A stretch of 64,000 nucleotides of DNA from Glycomyces niveus (GTDB lineage: Bacteria > Actinomycetota > Actinomycetes > Mycobacteriales > Micromonosporaceae). Both the position numbers and the translations under genes were made by a program. Every line of letters begins with the position of its first letter. Position 1 is the stretch's first letter. The stretch covers positions 1 to 64,000 of the forward strand of contig NZ_JAGFNP010000002.1 of assembly GCF_017592475.1 (NCBI RefSeq), in the 5' to 3' direction. The notes below the pieces were generated by a model. It made no database searches. It was not told the DNA's origin and worked only from the letters and a program-made list of their open reading frames with translations. Below, one piece after another: positions 18,491 to 27,334 of this stretch.

Positions 18491-19324
18491 ATGACCCCAC
18501 CAGTGCCCGGCCCGAGGGCGCTCGTCACCTACATGCAGACCGGCAGCCGCGAGGCCCGCATCGCCTACCGCGAGCTCCCCGACAAGGAGCGCGCGTCCTA
18601 CCGCATCCTGGTGCGCCGCGTCTTCGACACCGCACTCGCACGGCACCTCGGCAAGCACCCGGACAAGGCGCGGGTGCGCGAACTCATCGAGCGGACCGGC
18701 GATCGCCACCCCCAGTACGCCGGCGGCGTCAGGCGCGTCGTTCGCTCCACTGTGGATGGTACTCCGGTGGACGGCATGAGCCCCCGGCAGGTACTCACCG
18801 CCCAGCACCTCGTCATCCGCGAGATCGCCAAACTCCACTCCGACTTCCGCGACCAGGCCGACGAGATCGTCGACCCCGGCAGCGAGTTCACCGGCCGCGA
18901 ACCCCACGGCGTCGCCTCGGTGACCCTCGAACTCGACGGCACCATGCTCGACCTCCAGCTGCTGCGCGGCGCCGAACGCATGGGCGGCAAGACCCTCGGC
19001 GTGTGCATCGTCCGCGCCTGGGTCGACGCCGAGCAGCGGCGCTGGCGCAGCGCGAAGGAGATCGGCCGCCACGACCTCTTCCCGGAGATCGGCTCGGGCA
19101 AGGGCAGCGGGGACTCGTACCGCTACGAGGCGTATTCGACGAGCCGCCTCTGCCGCGCCACCGTGGACCGGTACGGGCGGCTGCGCGGTGTCACGTTCAT
19201 GCGCAACGCCCTCTTCGAGGACGACGGCCGCATCGGCCTCGCCGCCCAGCTCCGCGAAGCGGTCAGGAAAGCCCAGGCGGGCCTGAAGGACAAGGACCGC
19301 GCGGGCCTCGAAGCGTCAGTCTGA
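18491..19324 (+). CDS. Protein of unknown function, with a weak YbaB-like C-terminal region
   Basis: 277 aa, no signal or membrane segments, rich in Arg and Asp/Glu. I do not recognise it. The last 60 residues ([14 protein letters not shown]..., [17 protein letters not shown]) loosely resemble YbaB/EbfC-type nucleoid proteins: a beta hairpin then a helix with spaced alanines. This is a by-eye impression only. AAGGACG precedes the ATG. It converges on the murF-like gene with a 9-bp overlap of the coding ends, so it borders the vancomycin island without being clearly part of it. Confidence 0.7.
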
Positions 19325-20662
19325 CCCGATGGCTTCCGCGACCTCGTCGAGGCGGGCCTCCCGCGAGGCCTTGACCAGGACGATGTCGCCGGGTTCGAGC
19401 CGGGCGCGAAGCCACTCGATCGCGGCCGCGTTGTCCGCCAGCGCGATCCCGCGCTCGCCCGCCCCGTCCGTCACCGGCCTCGCGGCCCCGACCGCGATCA
19501 CGATGTCCGCCTTAGCGGCCGCGTACCGTCCGATCGCGAGGTGCTCGGCCTCGCTCGCGTCCCCGAGCTCGGCCATGTCGCCGAGGACGGCGATGCGGTG
19601 CCCGCCTTCGATCGCGGCGAGCGCGTCCAGGGCCGCGCGGGCCGAGTCCGGATTCGCGTTGTAGGAGTCGTTGAGCAGCGTGATGCCGCCGGGCAGCTCC
19701 CGCAGCTCCATGCGCCACTTCGACAGCGAGGCCCCCGCGAGCGCTGCGGCGGCCTGCTCGAGCGGTACCCCTGCGGCGAGCCCCGCCGCGGCGGCGGCCG
19801 CAGCGTTGAGCGCCTGGTGCGCACCCACGAACGGCAGCGCGACCCGCGTCTCAATGCCCCTGGCGTGCAAGGTGAACGAAGGCCGGCTGCGCCGGTCCAA
19901 CATCAAGTTCGCCACCCGCACATCGGCGTGCGGAGCCGAACCGAAGGTGATGACCGGCCCGTCGGTGTGCGTCCGCATCGCGGCCACGGCGGGATCGTCG
20001 GCGTTGAGGACGGCCGTGCCGCCGGGCCGCAGGCCCCGCACCAGCTCGCCCTTCGCCTCGGCGATCGCCTCGCGCGTCCCGAAATAGCTGAGATGCGCCT
20101 GCCCGACGTTGAGGACCACCCCGATGTCGGGCGGCGCCAGCGCGGCGAGCGCCGCGATGTCGCCGACGCGCCGCGCCCCCATCTCCAAAGCGAGGCAACG
20201 AGTCCCGGGGTCGGCGCGCAGGATCGTGACCGGCACGCCGAGCTCGTTGTTCATCGACCCGGCCGTGGCGACCGTCGGCGACGCGCTCGACAGCACCGCC
20301 CCCACCAGGTCCTTGGTGCTCGTCTTCCCCTGTGAACCGGTCACGCCGACCACGGTCAGCCCGCCCCGCAACCGCGCGGCGGCCTTGGCGGCGAGCGCCT
20401 GCAGCGCGGCCCGCGCGTCCGCGACGACGACCGTGGGCAGCGTCGTCGGCCGCGAGCCCAGCACCGCCACCGCGCCGGCCTTCCCGGCCTGCTCCGCGAA
20501 GTCGTGCCCGTCGACCCGCTCGCCGTCGAACGCGACGAACAGCCCGCCCGGCTCGGCGAGGCGGCCGTCGAGCACCGCCGGGGCGGTCACCATGACATCG
20601 GGATCGCCCGCGACCGCGCCGTCCGCGAGGGCGGCGATCTCCTTGAGACTGAATGGGATCAT
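19316..20662 (-). CDS. murF: MurF-like UDP-MurNAc-tripeptide:D-alanyl-D-X ligase of the vancomycin island
   Basis: Predicted ATP-dependent ligase adding the terminal dipeptide or depsipeptide to UDP-MurNAc-tripeptide, 448 aa. The three MurF domains are visible: N-terminal UDP-binding region ([17 protein letters not shown], about 39-55), central ATPase with P-loop [12 protein letters not shown] (106-117) and NNELGVP, and C-terminal domain with [12 protein letters not shown] 20662 is chosen because it places the shared van promoter element exactly 31 nt upstream. Encoded beside vanHAX and apparently co-induced, it is probably a second MurF that accepts D-Ala-D-Lac; a housekeeping copy is expected elsewhere. 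MurF paralogues beside van genes are known from some glycopeptide producers (from memory). Confidence 0.9.
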
Positions 20663-20693
20663 GCGCCCATCCAATGACCCGCGTGGTTGCGGG

Positions 20694-20761
20694 GGCGTAT
20701 GCGCTTTTCCATACGCCCCCGATAAGCGCCTATCGCGCGCGTATCGAAAACGCCATACGCC
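20694..20761. promoter_or_regulatory. Divergent murF/vanH promoters with two copies of the proposed VanR element
   Basis: vanH copy on plus strand 20730-20761: repeats TATCG (20731-20735) and TATCG (20742-20746), then AAAA and ATACGC. murF copy on minus strand 20725-20694: TTATCG, TATGG (20713-20709), AAAA, ATACGC. The repeats start 11 bp apart and each element ends 31 nt before its start codon. The perfect inverted repeat GGGGGCGTATG / CATACGCCCCC (20691-20701, 20710-20720) lies within and around the murF copy. The -35 regions are poor, as expected for activator-dependent promoters. Confidence 0.75.
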
Positions 20762-20792
20762 CCGGTAACGCCCGGCCCCGTTGACTGTGCGC

Positions 20793-21770
20793 ATGACCAA
20801 CAGGGAACCGGTCGGCATCGCCGTCTACGGATGCGGCGAGGACGAGGCCGCGCTGTTCCGCGCGCTCGCGCCGCGCTTCGGCGTCGCGCCCCGCATCACC
20901 GACGCCGCGCCGACTGAGGCGAACGCCGGCCTCGCGGCGGGCTGCCGCTGCGTGAGCATCGGCCACCAGACCCGCGTCACCGGCGCCGCCCTCCGGGCGC
21001 TGAGCCGAGCCGGCGTCGCCTACATCTCGACCAGGAGCATCGGCTACAACCACATCAGCGTCCAGTACGCCCGCAGCCTCGGCATCGAGGTCGGCAACGT
21101 CGCCTACTCGCCCGACAGCGTCGCCGACTACACGCTCATGCTCATGCTGATGTCCCTGCGGCACGCCAAGTCCACGGTCCTCCGCGCCGACGTGCACGAC
21201 TACCGCCTCCACGAGACGCGCGGGAGGGAACTGCGCGACCTCACCGTGGGCGTGGTCGGCACCGGCCGCATCGGATCGGCGGTCATCGACCGGCTGCGCG
21301 GCTTCGGCTGCCGCATCCTCGCGCACGACAACGGCCCCAAGGCGGCCGCCGAGTATGCGCCCCTCGACGACCTGCTGCGCCGCAGCGACATCGTCACCCT
21401 CCACACCCCGCTCAACGCGGGCACGCACCACTTCCTGGGCCGCGGGCGCCTCGCGCTCATGAAACCCGGCGCCGTCGTCGTCAACACCGGCCGCGGCGCG
21501 CTCATCGACACCGAAGCCCTGGTCTCGGCCCTGGAGAGCGGCAGGCTCGGCGGCGCGGCCCTCGACGTGGTCGAAGGCGAGGAAGGCGTCTTCTACGCCG
21601 ACCGCCGCGACCGGCCCGTCGGGAGCAAGCCGCTGCTGCGCCTCCAGCAAATGCCCCATGTGCTCATCAGCCCGCACACCGCCTACTACACGGACCACGC
21701 GCTCGGCGACATCGTCGAGCAGTCCATTGTGAACTGCCTGAACTTCGAGAAGGGAAACCAGCATGGCTAA
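20793..21770 (+). CDS. vanH: VanH, D-lactate dehydrogenase
   Basis: Reduces pyruvate to D-lactate, the precursor of D-Ala-D-Lac. 325 aa. The strongly conserved VanH block [12 protein letters not shown]...[18 protein letters not shown] is present (78-120). NAD-binding GTGRIGS (157-162) and catalytic R234 (NTGRGALID), Glu near 262-264 and H295 (SPHTAYYT) are all in place. ATG 20793 chosen over TTG 20781 because it fits the VanH N-terminus and the 31-nt spacing from the promoter element. Overlaps vanA by 8 nt; first gene of vanH-vanA-vanX-GNAT. Confidence 0.97.
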
Positions 21771-22803
21771 ACTGCAGGTCGGCGTCGTCTTCGGCGGCCG
21801 CTCCGAGGAGCACGCCGTCGCCGTCAAATCCGCCCGCGAAGTCGCCGACAGCCTGGACCGCGACCGGTACGAGCCGCACTTCATCGGCATCACCGAACAC
21901 GGCGAATGGCGGCTCTGCGACGGACCCGAACCCGGCTGGGAGCACGGCCTGCCCGCGATCCTCTCGCCCGACCGCGGCACCCGCGGCCTCCTCGTCTTCG
22001 AAGGCGGCCGACACAAGACGATCCCGCTCGACGCGGTCCTGCCCGTGCTCCACGGCAAGCAGGGCGAAGACGGCGCCATCCAGGGCCTCCTCGAACTCTC
22101 CGGCATCCCGTACGCCGGCTGCGATGTGCAGAGCTCTGCGCTGTGCATGGACAAGACCCTCGCCTACCTCGTCGTGCGCGACGCCGGCATCGCCGTGCCC
22201 GGCTTCCGGACCGTCGGCCCCGACGAGAAGACCGACGCCGAGACCCTGCCCTACCCCGTCTTCGTCAAACCCGCCCGCTCCGGCTCCTCGTTCGGCGTCA
22301 CCAAGGTCGACCACCCCGACCACCTCGAGGAGGCCATGGCGACCGCCAGGCGGTACGACGCGAAAGTCCTCATCGAAGCGGCCGTCGAGGGCGAGGAGAT
22401 CGGCTGCGCCGTCCTCGGCAACGGCACCGCGCTCTACGCCGGCGAGGTCGACCGCGTCGCGCTCTCCCACGGCTTCTTCAGGATCCACCAGGAGGACGCG
22501 CCGGAGACCGGGTCCGAGAACGCCACCTTCATCGTGCCCGCCGACATCCCCGCGGCCTCGCGCGCACTCGTCCAGGAGACCGCGAAGGCGATCTACCGCG
22601 CCCTCGGATGCCGGGGCCTCGCAAGGGTCGACCTGTTCCTCAAAGGAGACGGCACCGTCGTCCTGAACGAGGTGAACACCATGCCCGGGTTGACCTCTTA
22701 CAGCCGCTACCCGAGAATGATGGCGGCGTCGGGGCTGCCGCTCGCCGAGGTGATCGACCGGCTGGTCGCGCTGGCGCTGGAGGGAACGGCCGTTGCGGGA
22801 TGA
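21763..22803 (+). CDS. vanA: VanA-type D-alanine:D-lactate ligase
   Basis: ATP-grasp ligase making the depsipeptide D-Ala-D-Lac, which lowers glycopeptide affinity for cell-wall precursors. 346 aa. FGGRSEEHAVAVKSA at 10-24; omega-loop GFFRIHQE carries H242, corresponding to VanA H244, the residue that selects D-lactate over D-alanine; metal/substrate region LNEVNTMPGLTSYSRYPRMM. Starts inside the end of vanH and is overlapped at its end by vanX. Intrinsic or producer-type (actinomycete) lineage rather than a recent plasmid copy is inferred from base composition matching the neighbourhood. Confidence 0.97.
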   Translation: MAKLQVGVVFGGRSEEHAVAVKSAREVADSLDRDRYEPHFIGITEHGEWRLCDGPEPGWEHGLPAILSPDRGTRGLLVFEGGRHKTIPLDAVLPVLHGKQGEDGAIQGLLELSGIPYAGCDVQSSALCMDKTLAYLVVRDAGIAVPGFRTVGPDEKTDAETLPYPVFVKPARSGSSFGVTKVDHPDHLEEAMATARRYDAKVLIEAAVEGEEIGCAVLGNGTALYAGEVDRVALSHGFFRIHQEDAPETGSENATFIVPADIPAASRALVQETAKAIYRALGCRGLARVDLFLKGDGTVVLNEVNTMPGLTSYSRYPRMMAASGLPLAEVIDRLVALALEGTAVAG

Positions 22804-23401
22804 CTTCGCGTACGTCGACGAACTGGTGCCCGGCGCGCGCTGGGACGCGCGGTACGCCGGACCGGACAACTTCACCGGCGCGCCCGTCGAGGGGTACCTG
22901 ACCGACCGCATCGTGGGGACCCGCGCGCTCTGCGCGGCCCTGCGCGAGGCGCAAGGAAAAGCGGAGGCGATGGGCCTCGGCCTGCTGCTGTGGGACGCGT
23001 ACCGGCCGCAGCGCGCCGTGGACCGGTTCCTGCAGTGGGCGGCGCTCCCCGAGGACGGGCGCACGAAGGCCCGCCACTACCCGAACATCGACCGCACTGA
23101 AATGGTCGCGAAGCGGTACGTGGCCCCGAAATCCGGCCACAGCCGGGGGAGCACCGTCGACCTCACCCTCTGCCGCCTCGACACCGGCGAACCCGTCCCG
23201 ATGGGCGGCCACCACGACCTGATGGACCCGCTCTCCCACCACGGCGCCGCCGGCCCCACCCGCGAGGAGACCGCGAACCGCGGACTCCTGCGCTCCATCA
23301 TGGAGGACTGCGGTTTCGCGCCCTACCAATGGGAGTGGTGGCACTACACGCTCAAGAACGAGCCCTTCCCGGACACGTACTTCGACTTCCCGATCACCTG
23401 A
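22793..23401 (+). CDS. vanX: VanX, Zn-dependent D-Ala-D-Ala dipeptidase
   Basis: Hydrolyses D-Ala-D-Ala so that only D-Ala-D-Lac is built into the wall. 202 aa, the canonical length, with catalytic and metal residues at the same numbers as enterococcal VanX: R71, H116 and D123 (SGHSRGSTVD), E181 and H184 (EWWH). Start codon is TTG at 22793, overlapping vanA by 11 nt, with GGAGG about 8 nt upstream. The overlap points to coupled translation and fixed stoichiometry with the ligase. Confidence 0.97.
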   Translation: MRDDFAYVDELVPGARWDARYAGPDNFTGAPVEGYLTDRIVGTRALCAALREAQGKAEAMGLGLLLWDAYRPQRAVDRFLQWAALPEDGRTKARHYPNIDRTEMVAKRYVAPKSGHSRGSTVDLTLCRLDTGEPVPMGGHHDLMDPLSHHGAAGPTREETANRGLLRSIMEDCGFAPYQWEWWHYTLKNEPFPDTYFDFPIT

Positions 23402-23410
23402 AGGAGGACC

Positions 23411-23848
23411 ATGCTGATCCGACCCGTGCGCCCCGCCGACGCGGCGGCCGCCGCCGTCCTGCTCGGCCAGCTCGGCTACCCCCAGGACGGCGAGGCCGCC
23501 GTCGCCTCCCGCCTCGCCGCCTGGGCCGAGGACCCGTCGAGCGCGGCCTTCGCAGCCGAATCCGAAGGCGACGTGCTGGGCCTCATCGCCGTCCACGTCT
23601 GCCCGCACTTCGAGCGCGACGGCGCCTGGGGCCGCATCGCCGCGTTGGTCGTCGCCGAGGACGCCCGCGGTCGGGGCGTCGGCGGGCGGCTCGTGGCGGC
23701 CGCCGAATTGTTCGCGGCCGCTCACGGCTGCCAGCGGATGGAGGTCACCAGCAGCGACCGCCGCCGGGAAGCGCACGAGTTCTACCGCAGCCGCGGCTAT
23801 GCCGCGCAGACCGGCCGTTCGTCGCGGTTCCTACGCGACCTCGGGTAG
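23411..23848 (+). CDS. GNAT-family N-acetyltransferase in the vanHAX operon
   Basis: 145 aa, a single GNAT domain: acetyl-CoA-binding motif EDARGRGVGGRL about residues 84-95, C-terminal AHEFYRSRGY. It follows vanX by 9 nt with an excellent AAGGAGG ribosome site, so it is induced with vanHAX. Substrate unknown. It is much shorter than FemX/VanK-type aminoacyltransferases (about 350 aa or more), so it should not be read as VanK. Its last 18 bp overlap the end of vanS on the other strand. Confidence 0.88.
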   Translation: MLIRPVRPADAAAAAVLLGQLGYPQDGEAAVASRLAAWAEDPSSAAFAAESEGDVLGLIAVHVCPHFERDGAWGRIAALVVAEDARGRGVGGRLVAAAELFAAAHGCQRMEVTSSDRRREAHEFYRSRGYAAQTGRSSRFLRDLG

Positions 23849-24943
23849 GCGCACCTCGACACGGAGGCCGCCGCCCTCTCTGGCCGTGAGGGTGAGCGAC
23901 CCGTCGTGGACGCGGACGATGTTGTCCACGATCGCGAGGCCCAGGCCGACGCCCGCGTGGTCGCTGCGCACTCGCAGGGTGCCGCGCTGGAACGGCTCCG
24001 TGAGCGTGGCGACCAGGTGCGGCGTCAACTGCGGGCCCGTGTTCTCGACCGCGAGCACCGCGCCGCCAGCAACCTCGGTCGTCCTGATCCGCACCGTGCC
24101 GCCTTCGCCGAGATTGTGCACGATCGCATTGTGCAGCAAGTTGACCGCCATCTGCAGCAGCAGCGCGGGCGAGCCCGCCGCCGCCGCGAAATCGCCGGCG
24201 ACCTCGATGTCCACGCCGCGCTCCTCCGCCAGCGGCAGCAGCGTCTCAGCGGCCTCCTCCGCGACCAGTGAAAGGTCGACGCGCTCACTGACGAACGTGC
24301 GCTGGCCGCTGCGGCTCAGCATCAGCAGCGCCTCGGTGAGATCCACCGCCTTCGCGTTCACGTAATGCAGCCGCTCCACCAGCTCCTCCGAACCCCGCGC
24401 CGGGTCACGCCGGGCCACGTCGAGGAGCGCCTGCATGGTCGCGAGCGGCGTCCGCAGCTCATGGGAGGCGTTGGCCGCGAACCGCTGGTGCTCGGCCACA
24501 TGCGCTTCCAGCTGCTCGAGCATCGAGTCGAACGCGTCGGCCAGCTCGCGGAACTCGTCGCGGCGGCCCGGCATCCGGATGCGGTGCGAGAGCGAACCGT
24601 TCGCCGCGATCCGCGTCGCGGCCGCGATCTGGTTGAGCGGCGTCAGCATCCGGCCCGCGAGCAGCCATCCGCCCGCGAGACCGAACACGAGCAGGAAGCC
24701 CAGCACCACTGCGGCCTTCGGTATGAAGGCCCGCATGAGGTCGCCCCGGCCGGGGATGAACGTGCCGGGGCAGAGCCGGGCGGGGTCCGAGCACTCGCCG
24801 CGGATCGTCACCGCTTCAGGCGGCACGTACCGGAGGAGGAAGAACCAGACGACCGCGAGCAGCAGGACCCCGGCGAGCAGGAGGAACGCCGCATAGCTGA
24901 TCGTCAGTTTCAGCCGTGCGCTGAGGCCGGGCCGCCTACCCAC
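23831..24943 (-). CDS. vanS: VanS, glycopeptide-sensing histidine kinase
   Basis: Membrane sensor kinase controlling VanR, 370 aa from GTG 24943, which overlaps the vanR stop and gives the GRRPGLSARLKLTISYA N-terminus resembling S. coelicolor VanS. Two membrane helices (about 16-39 and 74-97) flank a short extracytoplasmic loop (about 40-72) holding two cysteines (C51, C58). HAMP about 95-150, phospho-accepting H161 in SHELRTP, N box NLLHNAIVHN, G boxes HAGVGLGLAI. A longer in-frame start at 24976 lies inside vanR. Its 3' end overlaps the GNAT gene. Confidence 0.95.
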   Translation of the reverse strand: MGRRPGLSARLKLTISYAAFLLLAGVLLLAVVWFFLLRYVPPEAVTIRGECSDPARLCPGTFIPGRGDLMRAFIPKAAVVLGFLLVFGLAGGWLLAGRMLTPLNQIAAATRIAANGSLSHRIRMPGRRDEFRELADAFDSMLEQLEAHVAEHQRFAANASHELRTPLATMQALLDVARRDPARGSEELVERLHYVNAKAVDLTEALLMLSRSGQRTFVSERVDLSLVAEEAAETLLPLAEERGVDIEVAGDFAAAAGSPALLLQMAVNLLHNAIVHNLGEGGTVRIRTTEVAGGAVLAVENTGPQLTPHLVATLTEPFQRGTLRVRSDHAGVGLGLAIVDNIVRVHDGSLTLTAREGGGLRVEVRLPEVA

Positions 24944-25610
24944 GGGCCGCGCCCGTCTCGATCCGGTAGCCCACACCGGGCACGGTCGCGATCACCCACG
25001 GCTCGCCGAGGCGCTTGCGCAGGGCCGAGACCGTGATGCGCACGGCGTTCGTGAACGGATCGGCGTTCTCGTCCCACGCCCGCTCCAGCAGGTCCTCGGC
25101 GCTCACCACGCCGCCCTCGGCGGCGATGAGCACCTCGAGCACCGCGAACTGCTTCCTGGTGAGCGCCACGTACTTCCCGTCGCGGAACACCTCCCGCCGG
25201 AACGGGTCCAGACGCAGGCCCGCGATCTCCCGCACCGGCGGCCGGTGGTGGGCCCGCCGGCGGTCGAGCGCCCGCAGGCGCAGCACGAGCTCCTTGAGCG
25301 CGAACGGCTTCGTGAGGTAGTCGTCCGCGCCGAGCTCGAACCCCGACGCCTTGTCGTCGAGCCGGTCTGCCGCGGTCAGCATCAGGATCGGCATGCCGGT
25401 GCCGGACGCCACGATGTGCGCGGCCACCTCGTCGCCCGACGGCCCGGGGATGTCGCGGTCGAGGACCGCGATGTCATAGGCGTTCACGCTCAACAGCTCC
25501 AGGGCGGCGTCGCCGTCCCCGGCGATGTCCGCGGCGATGGCCTCCAGCCGGAGACCGTCGCGGATGGCCTCGGCCAGAAAGGGTTCGTCCTCGACGATCA
25601 GCACGCGCAT
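24936..25610 (-). CDS. vanR: VanR, OmpR-family response regulator
   Basis: Activator of the resistance genes, 224 aa, close in appearance to S. coelicolor VanR. Receiver domain 1-115 with phospho-site D51 (VLDRDIPGPSGDE), acidic pocket E7-D8 and K102-type KPF motif; C-terminal winged helix about 125-220 (VRITVSALRKRLG, VPGVGYRI). Expected to bind direct repeats spaced 11 bp, which are present before vanH, murF and vanY but not before vanR itself. Translationally coupled to vanS. Confidence 0.96.
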   Translation of the reverse strand: MRVLIVEDEPFLAEAIRDGLRLEAIAADIAGDGDAALELLSVNAYDIAVLDRDIPGPSGDEVAAHIVASGTGMPILMLTAADRLDDKASGFELGADDYLTKPFALKELVLRLRALDRRRAHHRPPVREIAGLRLDPFRREVFRDGKYVALTRKQFAVLEVLIAAEGGVVSAEDLLERAWDENADPFTNAVRITVSALRKRLGEPWVIATVPGVGYRIETGAARG

Positions 25611-25636
25611 AGTCCCAAGATGCTACGGCCGCGCCC

Positions 25637-25668
25637 CTATCGTCGGTATATGGAAAACCGCTAACGCG
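25637..25668 (+). promoter_or_regulatory. vanY promoter with proposed VanR element
   Basis: Third copy of the element: TATCG (25638-25642) and TATGG (25649-25653), starts 11 bp apart, then AAAA and TAACGC, ending exactly 31 nt before the vanY ATG. The 89-bp vanR-vanY intergenic region contains only this copy, oriented toward vanY. Confidence 0.7.
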
Positions 25669-25699
25669 CCGACAACACCGGCCCGCCTGTACTGGACGC

Positions 25700-26302
25700 A
25701 TGTCCAGCACCCTTGCGCCTCGCGCCATGACCCGTCGCCTCCGCCGGGGCCTCGCCGCCCGCGCGGTCGCCGTCCTCGCCGCGCTGGCCGCCGCCCTCGG
25801 CTACCGGCTCCTGCGCATCCGGGACCGCGGCGCGCTCGGCGTCCCCGACGGCGCGGTCCCGTACCGGACCACGGTCTTCGACGACACGGTGCCGGGCGTC
25901 GCCAACCTGGACCCGCCGCTCCTCGCCGCCCTGCGCCGCGCCGGCGCCGAGGCCGCCCGAGGGGGCGTCACCCTCTACGTCAACAGCGGCTGGCGCTCGC
26001 CCGAGTACCAGCGTCAACTGCGCCGCGAAGCAGTTGCCGAATACGGGTCCGAGGCGGCCGCGTCCCGCTGGGTCTCCACTCCGGAGACCTCGGCGCACGT
26101 GGACGGTCGCGCGGTCGACATCGGCCCGCCCGACGCCGCGGCCTGGCTATCCGAACACGGTGCCGCCCACGGTCTCTGCCGCATCTACGCGAACGAGCCC
26201 TGGCACTTCGAACTGCGTCCCGAAGCGATCGAACACGGCCCGCCGCCGATGTACGCCAACCCCGCCGAAGATCCGCGAACACGGGTCCGCCCCGCGATCT
26301 GA
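25700..26302 (+). CDS. vanY: VanY-type D,D-carboxypeptidase (M15), membrane-anchored
   Basis: Removes the terminal D-Ala from residual D-Ala-D-Ala pentapeptides outside the membrane, lowering the number of vancomycin targets. 200 aa: basic N-terminus, one membrane helix (about 19-38), then an M15 zinc peptidase with SAHVDGRAVD (H133, D140) and EPWHF (E166, H169), plus the NSGWRSPEYQ substrate loop. Divergent from vanR and carrying the shared van promoter element. Resembles the VanYn class of actinomycetes. Confidence 0.93.
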   Translation: MSSTLAPRAMTRRLRRGLAARAVAVLAALAAALGYRLLRIRDRGALGVPDGAVPYRTTVFDDTVPGVANLDPPLLAALRRAGAEAARGGVTLYVNSGWRSPEYQRQLRREAVAEYGSEAAASRWVSTPETSAHVDGRAVDIGPPDAAAWLSEHGAAHGLCRIYANEPWHFELRPEAIEHGPPPMYANPAEDPRTRVRPAI

Positions 26303-26455: not shown

Positions 26456-27334
26456 TTGCGCGACACGGCGATCGACGAACGGCTGCTGCGGGACCTCCTG
26501 GAGCAGCAATGCCCCGACCTGGCCGACCTCGAGGTCAAGTCCGTCGACGGCGGTTGGACCAACCAGATGTGGCGCCTCGGCCCCGACCTGGCGGTGCGCA
26601 TCCCCCGGAGAGACGACGCCCCCGCGCTGCTCGAGCGGGAGCACCGCCTGATCCCCGACATCGCCTCTCGGCTGCCGCTGCCGGTCCCCGTGCCCACCCG
26701 GCTCAGCGAGCCCTCGGAGCGGTTCCCCTACCACTGGCTCATCACCACCTGGGTCCACGGCACGCCTGCCGACCTCGCCCCGATCACCGACCCCGAATCG
26801 GCCGCCACGCTCGCCGACTTCCTGACCGCCCTCCACCTCGAAGGCCCCGCCGACAACCCCGCGAACGACGGCCGCGGCGCGCCCCTCACCGACATGGACG
26901 AGCGGTTCGAGCAGACCCTCCAACGCCTCCCCGAGGTCGACGCCGACCGCGCCCGCGCCGTCTGGCGGGAGTCGCTCGACGCGGCCCCCCACAACGGCAC
27001 CGGCGTGTGGCTGCACGGCGACCTGCACCCGGCCAACGTCGTCGTCGAGGACGGCCGCCTGTCGGGCGTGATCGACTTCGGCGAGATCTTCGTCGGCGAT
27101 CCCGCCGTCGACCTCGCCGCCGCCTGGATCCTGCTACCCGACGGCGCTTCCGACGCGTTCTTCAACGCGTACAAGGCAGCCGACGAGGCCACGATCCTGC
27201 GCGCCCGCGGTCTGGCGCTCATCAAGGCGTTCGGGCTGATCGAGATCGGCATCGCCGGAGAGCGCGGCTGGGCCGGAGGCAAGCCGACTTGGAAGCCTGC
27301 CGGAGAAGCGGCGCTCTCCCGCATCCTGCGCTGA
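26456..27334 (+). CDS. Aminoglycoside/macrolide phosphotransferase-fold kinase (APH family)
   Basis: 292 aa with the APH kinase signature HGDLHPANVV (187-196, catalytic Asp) and metal-binding DFGE (207-210). The usual ATP-lysine strand reads DLAVRIPRR, as in macrolide-phosphotransferase-like relatives. TTG start at 26456 follows GAAGGGATG. It could modify an antibiotic, but this family also holds many kinases of small metabolites, so no resistance phenotype can be claimed. It lies after the vanY terminator and lacks the van promoter element. Confidence 0.85.
   Translation: MRDTAIDERLLRDLLEQQCPDLADLEVKSVDGGWTNQMWRLGPDLAVRIPRRDDAPALLEREHRLIPDIASRLPLPVPVPTRLSEPSERFPYHWLITTWVHGTPADLAPITDPESAATLADFLTALHLEGPADNPANDGRGAPLTDMDERFEQTLQRLPEVDADRARAVWRESLDAAPHNGTGVWLHGDLHPANVVVEDGRLSGVIDFGEIFVGDPAVDLAAAWILLPDGASDAFFNAYKAADEATILRARGLALIKAFGLIEIGIAGERGWAGGKPTWKPAGEAALSRILR

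Follow-up and report, generated by a model that had tools for sequence, protein, structure and literature searches.

Organization of the van locus and its three promoter elements

We analysed a 64,000-nt stretch of the Glycomyces niveus genome (hereafter the window), which carries a van gene cluster, and an element found upstream of vanH, murF and vanY that we propose to be the operator and promoter of VanR-activated genes. A forward-strand row begins with the D-lactate dehydrogenase gene vanH (20793–21770; NCBIfam vanH models scoring under their curated cut-offs, e.g. NF000112 with 507.5 bits), followed by a vanA-type D-alanine-(R)-lactate ligase gene (21763–22803; NF000206, 563.9 bits, above the cut-off of 550), the D-Ala-D-Ala dipeptidase gene vanX (22793–23401, start codon tentative; NF033115, 348.7 bits, above the cut-off of 320) and, last, a gene for a GNAT acetyltransferase (23411–23848; PF00583, 64.2 bits). 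The reverse strand carries vanS, a sensor kinase of the VanS-O type (23831–24976; best model NF033094, 427.7 bits, under its cut-off of 720), and vanR, an OmpR-family response regulator of the VanR-O type with the Pfam domains Response_reg and Trans_reg_C (24936–25610; best model NF033118, 448.5 bits, under the cut-off of 505; 425 bits to Streptomyces coelicolor VanR, 7lz9). A vanY-like D,D-carboxypeptidase gene (25700–26302, forward; PF02557, 44.1 bits, above the cut-off of 25) and a murF gene (19316–20662, reverse; TIGR01143, 412.2 bits), the second copy in the genome, complete the cluster. Downstream of vanY lies a gene for an APH-family phosphotransferase (26456–27334; PF01636, 130 bits). 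This arrangement is already known, vanHAXRSY with MurF and GNAT genes having been described from Glycomycetales (PMC8698665).

Three 32-bp copies of the element were located at 20730–20761 (forward), 20725–20694 (reverse) and 25637–25668 (forward), each ending 31 nt before a start codon, just as an earlier note on this DNA had described; the ATG codons 3′ of the copies are those of vanH (20793, forward), murF (20662, reverse) and vanY (25700, forward). All three copies also agreed with the internal pattern given there, a TATCG repeat, a TATSG repeat 11 bp later and AAAA, both by pattern search and by inspection of the letters. This core, TATCG-N6-TATSG-AAAA, matched exactly at these three places in the window, and allowing up to two mismatches added no further site, compared with 0.04 matches expected from shuffled windows at the same stringency. 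In the whole 5.26-Mb genome the exact core occurred three times, in the vanH, murF and vanY copies only, and up to two mismatches gave 10 matches versus 2 for a reversed control. The sole genome match with one mismatch (G000:C8:466) had, by eye, neither a CATACG nor a TTGACT part and was taken as a chance match.

The core defines a proposed VanR box at 20731–20750 on the forward strand for vanH (TATCGCGCGCGTATCGAAAA, −62 to −43 from the ATG), at 20705–20724 on the reverse strand for murF (TATCGGGGGCGTATGGAAAA, back to back with the vanH box) and at 25638–25657 on the forward strand between vanR and vanY (TATCGTCGGTATATGGAAAA), each an exact match to the pattern. Scored with a 56-position matrix from whose training the copy in question was left out, while its close relatives stayed in, the promoters of vanH, murF and vanY reached 63.7, 49.7 and 61.0 bits, respectively, the murF copy thus being the weakest of the three. 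The next best site in the window scored −9.3 bits and the best among 45 control loci −14.8 bits.

Conserved architecture of the promoter

A search of genome contigs with the VanA of the window yielded at least 80 loci (L011–L090). The earlier note had suggested looking for the core in other actinomycete van clusters, and this was done: among the matches listed, it recurred before vanH in most actinobacterial vanHAX loci with a VanR 86–90% identical to that of the window, and before other genes as well. From 48 loci and the window we collected 87 distinct copies with up to two mismatches to the core, which include close relatives and are therefore not independent. An ATG or GTG codon stood 61–64 nt after the first T in 76 of the 87 (49 at 62, 24 at 63, 2 at 64 and 1 at 61); the next commonest start-codon offsets were 28 (17 copies, a GTG within CATACGTG) and 54 (7 copies).

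The profile of these 76 copies revealed a series of conserved blocks: TATCG (offsets 0–4), GGC (7–9), TATCGAAAA (11–19), CATACG (23–28), GGCAAC (33–38) and TTGACT (50–55), after which comes the start codon, so that the full promoter reads TATCG-N6-TATCGAAAA, CATACG, GGCAAC, TTGACT, start codon. Two like half-sites in the same direction, TATCG at offset 0 and TATSG at offset 11, were present here as in all copies of the window, and the best TTGACT-like hexamer fell at offset 50 in 67 of the 76. The sites first described as a 32-bp element are real, and it is their extent that needs revision, the conserved unit being about twice as long (62 nt, up to the start codon). The copies used to train the matrix (offsets 0–55) had been chosen for their start codon, so that the presence of a start codon in 130 of 134 matrix matches is not independent support, and one training copy itself scored only −7.5. 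A hairpin or RNA signal was also considered, because of a perfect 12-nt inverted repeat in the murF stretch, and was rejected: the pairing is not kept across the profile, since offset 10 is a mixture of G and A while its partner at offset 27 is nearly fixed.

Position of the probable −10 element and proposed leaderless transcription

In the earlier note WWACGC, which corresponds to the CATACG block, had been taken as the −10. This assignment is probably wrong; the block (20754–20759, forward, in the vanH promoter; conserved at offsets 23–28) sits at about −39 to −34. A better candidate is the hexamer at −12 to −7, six bases before each ATG: TTGACT for vanH (20781–20786, forward), TTGGAT for murF (20669–20674, reverse) and TGTACT for vanY (25688–25693, forward), the last two at the same offset as in vanH, as verified in the letters. 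For vanR we propose TAGCAT (25620–25625, reverse) at −15 to −10, nine bases before its ATG and the only one of the four hexamers that fits TANNNT. The TTGACT-type hexamer just before the ATG is probably the −10, and vanH, murF and vanY are probably leaderless here, both judged from sequence. Table 1 of PMC3160421 lists vanH, vanK and vanR of S. coelicolor among genes documented to be leaderless; the upstream strings given for them terminate in CCTTGAATAGAGGCATG, CCTTGACTGGGGGCATG and CGTAATCTCGACACCATG, respectively. A leaderless start, which ties the promoter to the start codon, would explain the fixed 31-nt distance in three unrelated genes.

The possibility that TTGACT serves as a −35 element was rejected. 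With such a reading the −10 would have to lie within the coding sequence, and the profile had no TANNNT there (offsets 73–78); the listing of S. coelicolor vanH and vanK as starting at the ATG (Table 1 of PMC3160421) also opposes it.

One box between vanR and vanY

The vanRS genes had been described as lacking the element. The vanY copy, however, lies in the 89-bp gap between vanR and vanY, only 27 bases from the start of vanR, and is thus upstream of vanR too. Among 45 distinct vanR upstream regions, the box was found in 39 at up to three mismatches (33 at up to two), 23–27 bases from vanR, and a TANNNT starting between −20 and −5 was present in all 45. Distances were also counted in the 52 genomes of the class survey described below that had the element and vanR on one contig, the vanY box of the window being added by hand as it differs from the 56-nt pattern by more than three mismatches; in 39 of the 52 an element was divergent from vanR, with its first T 25–28 positions (in one case 41) away from the first vanR base. 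A single VanR box between vanR and vanY therefore probably serves both directions, as far as sequence can tell.

At six loci (L019, L020, L044, L143, L147 and L148) the box beside vanR was kept with no start codon at the usual place; L044 retains the other blocks, and L019, L143, L147 and L148 have lost them. One locus (L138, genome G441) contains a head-to-head pair of VanR genes, 85 and 86% identical to that of the window, separated by a box and flanked by vanA on one side and vanH-vanX on the other. Another (L140, near 7269, genome G444) has a lone box with one mismatch in a 15-kb stretch with no VanR match, the VanR of this genome lying about 200 kb away; this box may be the remnant of a vanR promoter.

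Co-occurrence of the promoter with VanR

A survey at the level of the class covered 394 genomes, scored for the 56-nt promoter at up to three mismatches and for VanR at E ≤ 1e-100. The promoter was found in 56 genomes and VanR in 71, with both in 54, the promoter only in 2, VanR only in 17 and neither in 321, the overlap being computed from hand-transcribed genome lists. The promoter was thus present in 54 of 71 genomes with VanR versus 2 of 323 without it (Fisher p 1e-48, a nominal value that ignores kinship), and no match to the control for the 56-nt pattern was seen in the class genomes. By genus, the promoter occurred in 25 and VanR in 28 of the 138 sampled. One of the two promoter-only genomes (G1177) has a VanR 75% identical to that of the window, with an E value of 3.1e-100, adjoining a vanY; the other (G956, 850 contigs) has a VanS 69% identical on the contig of the element, and its best VanR-like match, 58% identical, is elsewhere.

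The 56-nt pattern was used for the class because the short core is too weak in low-GC genomes; across the phylum the core matched in 13 of 396 genomes and its reversed control in 9, by a hand count. Within the family (61 genomes) the exact core was found in 9 of 18 genomes with a VanR of at least 83% identity and in none of the 43 others, and at one mismatch in 16 of the 18 and 13 of the 43.

Among the 30 vanH loci in the matches listed, the element preceded vanH in 12 of 13 with a VanR of 86–90% identity (scores 28.5–91.7) and in none of 8 with a VanR of 26–35% identity (scores −42.3 or lower); of the 9 without VanR in the locus, 7 had the element. Kinship is confounded with VanR type in this comparison, as the 8 loci of the other type are mostly not from actinobacteria.

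The S. coelicolor vanH string was held at up to one mismatch by 2 of 392 genomes of the genus of G182, one of them (G690) matching exactly. The van region of G690 (L157) contained seven of the eight published S. coelicolor strings and primers exactly, the vanJ reverse primer having two mismatches, and the predicted products were 539 bp for vanHp, as published, and 312 bp for vanJp compared with the published 321 bp. Given these string and primer matches, L157 is S. coelicolor or a close relative. Elements stand there before vanH, vanK and vanJ, three in all, and 25 bases separate the vanJ element from vanR. According to the sources cited, the S. coelicolor cluster consists of four transcription units, vanRS, vanJ, vanK and vanHAX (PMC4790382), and vancomycin induces vanRSJKHAX (PMC7947799). 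Since the element co-occurs with VanR and stands before units reported to be vancomycin-induced, the proposal of a VanR regulon comprising vanHAX, murF and vanY is well supported, the binding itself being a prediction. The box is very probably a VanR binding site, although this is deduced from sequence comparison.

murF and other predicted target genes

The link of murF to the VanR element, as the earlier note had proposed, held in the window and was not universal: 9 of 13 van-type murF genes (at least 70% identity) had an element of their own (the window, L021, L134, L136, L141, L145, L203, L205 and L207), a partial murF in L026 (64%), whose start fell outside the alignment, being excluded. 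G405 and G443, the two congeneric genomes covered, each had vanH and vanY elements, and the murF element was present in G405 and absent from G443. The genome of the window has another MurF-like gene at G000:C1:109271 (48% identical), presumably the housekeeping copy, with three weaker Mur-ligase-like matches within 10 kb.

In the fetched loci, 130 elements had a start codon; 109 of the first open reading frames (ORFs) behind them were at least 60 amino acids long, comprising 46 VanH, 33 VanY, 7 VanK, 4 MurF, 4 VanJ and 15 others, and the remaining 21 were short ORFs of 14–44 codons. Ten hand-picked targets compared with Pfam gave two VanZ-like proteins, three of the PF00144 beta-lactamase family, one PhyH, one Exo_endo_phos (a VanJ relative) and three with no family; six of the 15 others were among those compared, and at least eight of the rest resemble the VanZ-like one by eye. 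Genome G1140 (L195–L198) has boxes at four places on the chromosome, two of them before PF00144 genes. In this genome and in L147, L210 and L211, boxes precede genes outside a vanHAX cluster, often by way of a short leader ORF, and the targets outside vanHAX clusters include PF00144 proteins and a VanZ-like look-alike. In Patulibacter (L015, 8349) an element precedes a PhyH-family (PF05721) gene inside the van region.

The start codon as a possible part of the element

For 14 of the 21 short first ORFs, the start of the following long ORF overlapped the leader stop by 4 nt, and eight of these 14 long ORFs begin like MurF, VanK or VanH, the likeness being judged by eye. Since a TGA stop gives a 4-nt overlap by chance in about half of cases, only such recognisable genes carry weight. 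In L145, L134, L179 and L205, a leader ORF of 16–28 codons has a stop that overlaps the murF start by 4 nt.

Conservation also continued past the ATG. At least 20 of the 33 nt of the consensus ATGACCTACAGCGAACCAGCACGAACAGCGGCC were matched in 63 of 130 genes versus none of 520 control windows, the consensus having been built from the set on which it was tested. The matches comprised 31 of 46 VanH, 15 of 33 VanY, all 7 VanK, 9 of 21 short leaders and 1 of 15 other genes, with none among 4 MurF and 4 VanJ; in the window, vanH keeps 22 of the 33 positions, vanY 16 and murF 13. Several wobble positions past the ATG prefer A, which is odd for such GC-rich genomes and suggests that the nucleotide sequence itself is constrained or was copied recently.

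These features might mean that the unit is a transferable leaderless start cassette, consisting of the VanR box, the −10, the AUG and in many lineages about eleven codons (M-T/S-Y-S-E-P-A-R-T-A-A, A-rich at the wobble positions), and that the regulon grew by capture, an idea to which we give an even chance. A cassette bringing its own start codon would capture genes by in-frame fusion or through a short leader ORF. Fusion would account for the N-terminus shared by the unrelated VanH, VanY and VanK, and the leader route for short ORFs whose stop overlaps the gene start by 4 nt, and one VanR box would drive two divergent promoters at two different distances. If this is true, the actinobacterial glycopeptide regulon would have spread in this manner to VanY, MurF, VanZ-like, VanJ, VanK and PF00144 proteins.

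Proposed mechanism and alternative explanations

We estimate a probability of roughly 0.87 that each copy is the operator and promoter of a VanR-activated gene. The conserved blocks, their spacing, the co-occurrence with VanR and the placement before units reported as induced are features of the sequences; from them we infer direct VanR binding, its contacts, the transcription starts in this species and a function of CATACG and GGCAAC, as follows. In the presence of a glycopeptide, VanS would phosphorylate VanR, a dimer of which would bind head to tail on TATCG-N6-TATSG, with half-sites 11 bp apart at −62 to −43; CATACG and GGCAAC would perhaps be contacted by further VanR or by RNA polymerase. 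VanR would recruit the polymerase to the weak TTGACT-type −10 at −12 to −7, and transcription from or beside the start codon would leave the mRNA with no leader and so determine how far the box lies from the ATG. In the gap between vanR and vanY, the box would act both ways and cause autoactivation of vanRS, and vanHAX and its GNAT gene would be switched on jointly with the second murF, vanY and vanRS.

Several observations weigh against this proposal. The second base of TTGACT is not the A of TANNNT. When the published vanHp-gusA fragment is placed on L157 by its primers, its end falls 35 nt past the first T, so that AAC, the −10 and the ATG are not included. The fragment was still induced about 20-fold in liquid, and poorly on plates (PMC9779433), which is difficult to reconcile with TTGAAT being an essential −10 unless a −10 came from the vector; the vanJp reporter, whose fragment spans the element, was induced about 40-fold in liquid (PMC9779433). 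The box was missing at up to three mismatches from 6 of the 45 vanR upstream regions, and the promoter at three mismatches from 17 of the 71 VanR genomes, at least two of which (G128 and G161) have the exact short core within a diverged promoter and one of which (G204) lacks the short core even at one mismatch. L022, with a VanR 89% identical, has no element before vanH, and 4 of the 13 van-type murF genes (L012, L017, L039 and L135) have none of their own. Furthermore, the 13 one-mismatch matches among the 43 family genomes without such a VanR mean that matches of this kind to the short core are often due to chance.

The vanHp reporter is the best point for the −10 proposed in the earlier note, WWACGC, and for the version of the promoter that goes with it, with leaders of about 25 nt and vanRS outside the regulon: its fragment ends just past CATACG, which is itself strongly conserved, and before TTGAAT, and is inducible nevertheless. 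We consider this version very improbable, as vanH, vanK and vanR are documented as leaderless in S. coelicolor (Table 1 of PMC3160421), unrelated genes keep their start codon at a set distance from the box, and a TTGACT at constant offset would be needless if the transcripts had a leader. An exclusion of vanRS from the regulon likewise conflicts with the box 23–27 bases before vanR in most upstream regions and with the vancomycin induction of vanRS itself reported for S. coelicolor (PMC7947799).

Activation of these genes by VanR could instead be indirect, with another activator or an alternative sigma factor that travels with vanRS reading the sequence, for which CATACG, GGCAAC and the unusual TTGACT would be suitable signals. 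The vanR promoters, however, share the box and carry TANNNT in place of TTGACT, so that what the regulon has in common is the box rather than the sigma-type part; vanH genes in loci with another type of VanR are not preceded by the element, and the 11-bp direct repeat suits a head-to-tail dimer of the OmpR family, as modelled for S. coelicolor VanR in its structure paper (PMC8329863). A separate factor is thus very unlikely. Similarity extending past the ATG into the first codons of unrelated genes in many relatives would be expected if the copies had arisen by recent duplication of a single promoter stretch and were not individually under regulatory selection. This is the explanation in which we place the least belief, close to none, because the blocks are kept and the intervening bases vary over many genera (25 of the 138 sampled), and because murF and vanY of the window keep the blocks and not the downstream codons. 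VanR-dependent activation from the box remains the reading that we prefer.

Comparison with known regulatory systems

Clinical van genes are widely believed to derive from actinobacteria. For S. coelicolor VanR, the 2021 structure paper stated that the recognised sequences were not yet known and therefore called its placement of the dimer on DNA speculation (PMC8329863). A network study reported MEME consensus sequences upstream of its modules, one of which joins vanRS with vanKHAX (PMC3224704). Our full-text search of an open-access library found no description of such a box, and an earlier report in subscription papers or in a supplement is possible. What appears to be new is a precise candidate recognition sequence for this type of VanR, together with indications that promoter and start codon move as one unit. 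A 20-bp candidate with fixed half-site spacing in many actinobacterial genera makes the placement of VanR directly testable. The box also lets VanR regulons be read from genomes and points to murF, vanY, VanZ-like and beta-lactamase-family genes, and its fixed distance from the start codon hints at a way for a leaderless promoter to be passed on to further genes.

The closest known system is the VanRS regulon of S. coelicolor, which shares the type of VanR and has the same element, in L157, before vanH, vanK and vanJ; its vanH, vanK and vanR are listed as leaderless, as we propose for the genes of the window. It differs in its targets: these are here vanHAX, the second murF and vanY, and there is no vanJ or vanK promoter among the three copies. 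Enterococcal VanR of the VanA and VanB types likewise activates vanRS and vanHAX in response to glycopeptides, and its recognition sequences are known, as summarized in PMC8329863; these proteins are, however, less than 20% identical to S. coelicolor VanR (PMC8329863), and vanH loci with a VanR only 26–35% identical to that of the window did not have the element in any of the 8 cases among the matches listed. Gel shifts with Dbv6 of Nonomuraea were set aside, since the literature treats this protein as having no relation to VanRS-type systems (PMC7148328).

OmpR-family regulators commonly bind direct repeats about 11 bp apart, and classical pho boxes lie over the place of the −35. The element of the window shares with PhoB/OmpR-type direct-repeat operators the two like half-sites, 11 bp apart and in the same direction, upstream of the promoter. 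Unlike the classical pho boxes, the box of the window is at −62 to −43, upstream of the conserved CATACG, and its promoter is proposed to be leaderless. Taken together, the element resembles an OmpR-family operator of a known kind, with a putative leaderless, cassette-like build that is unusual.

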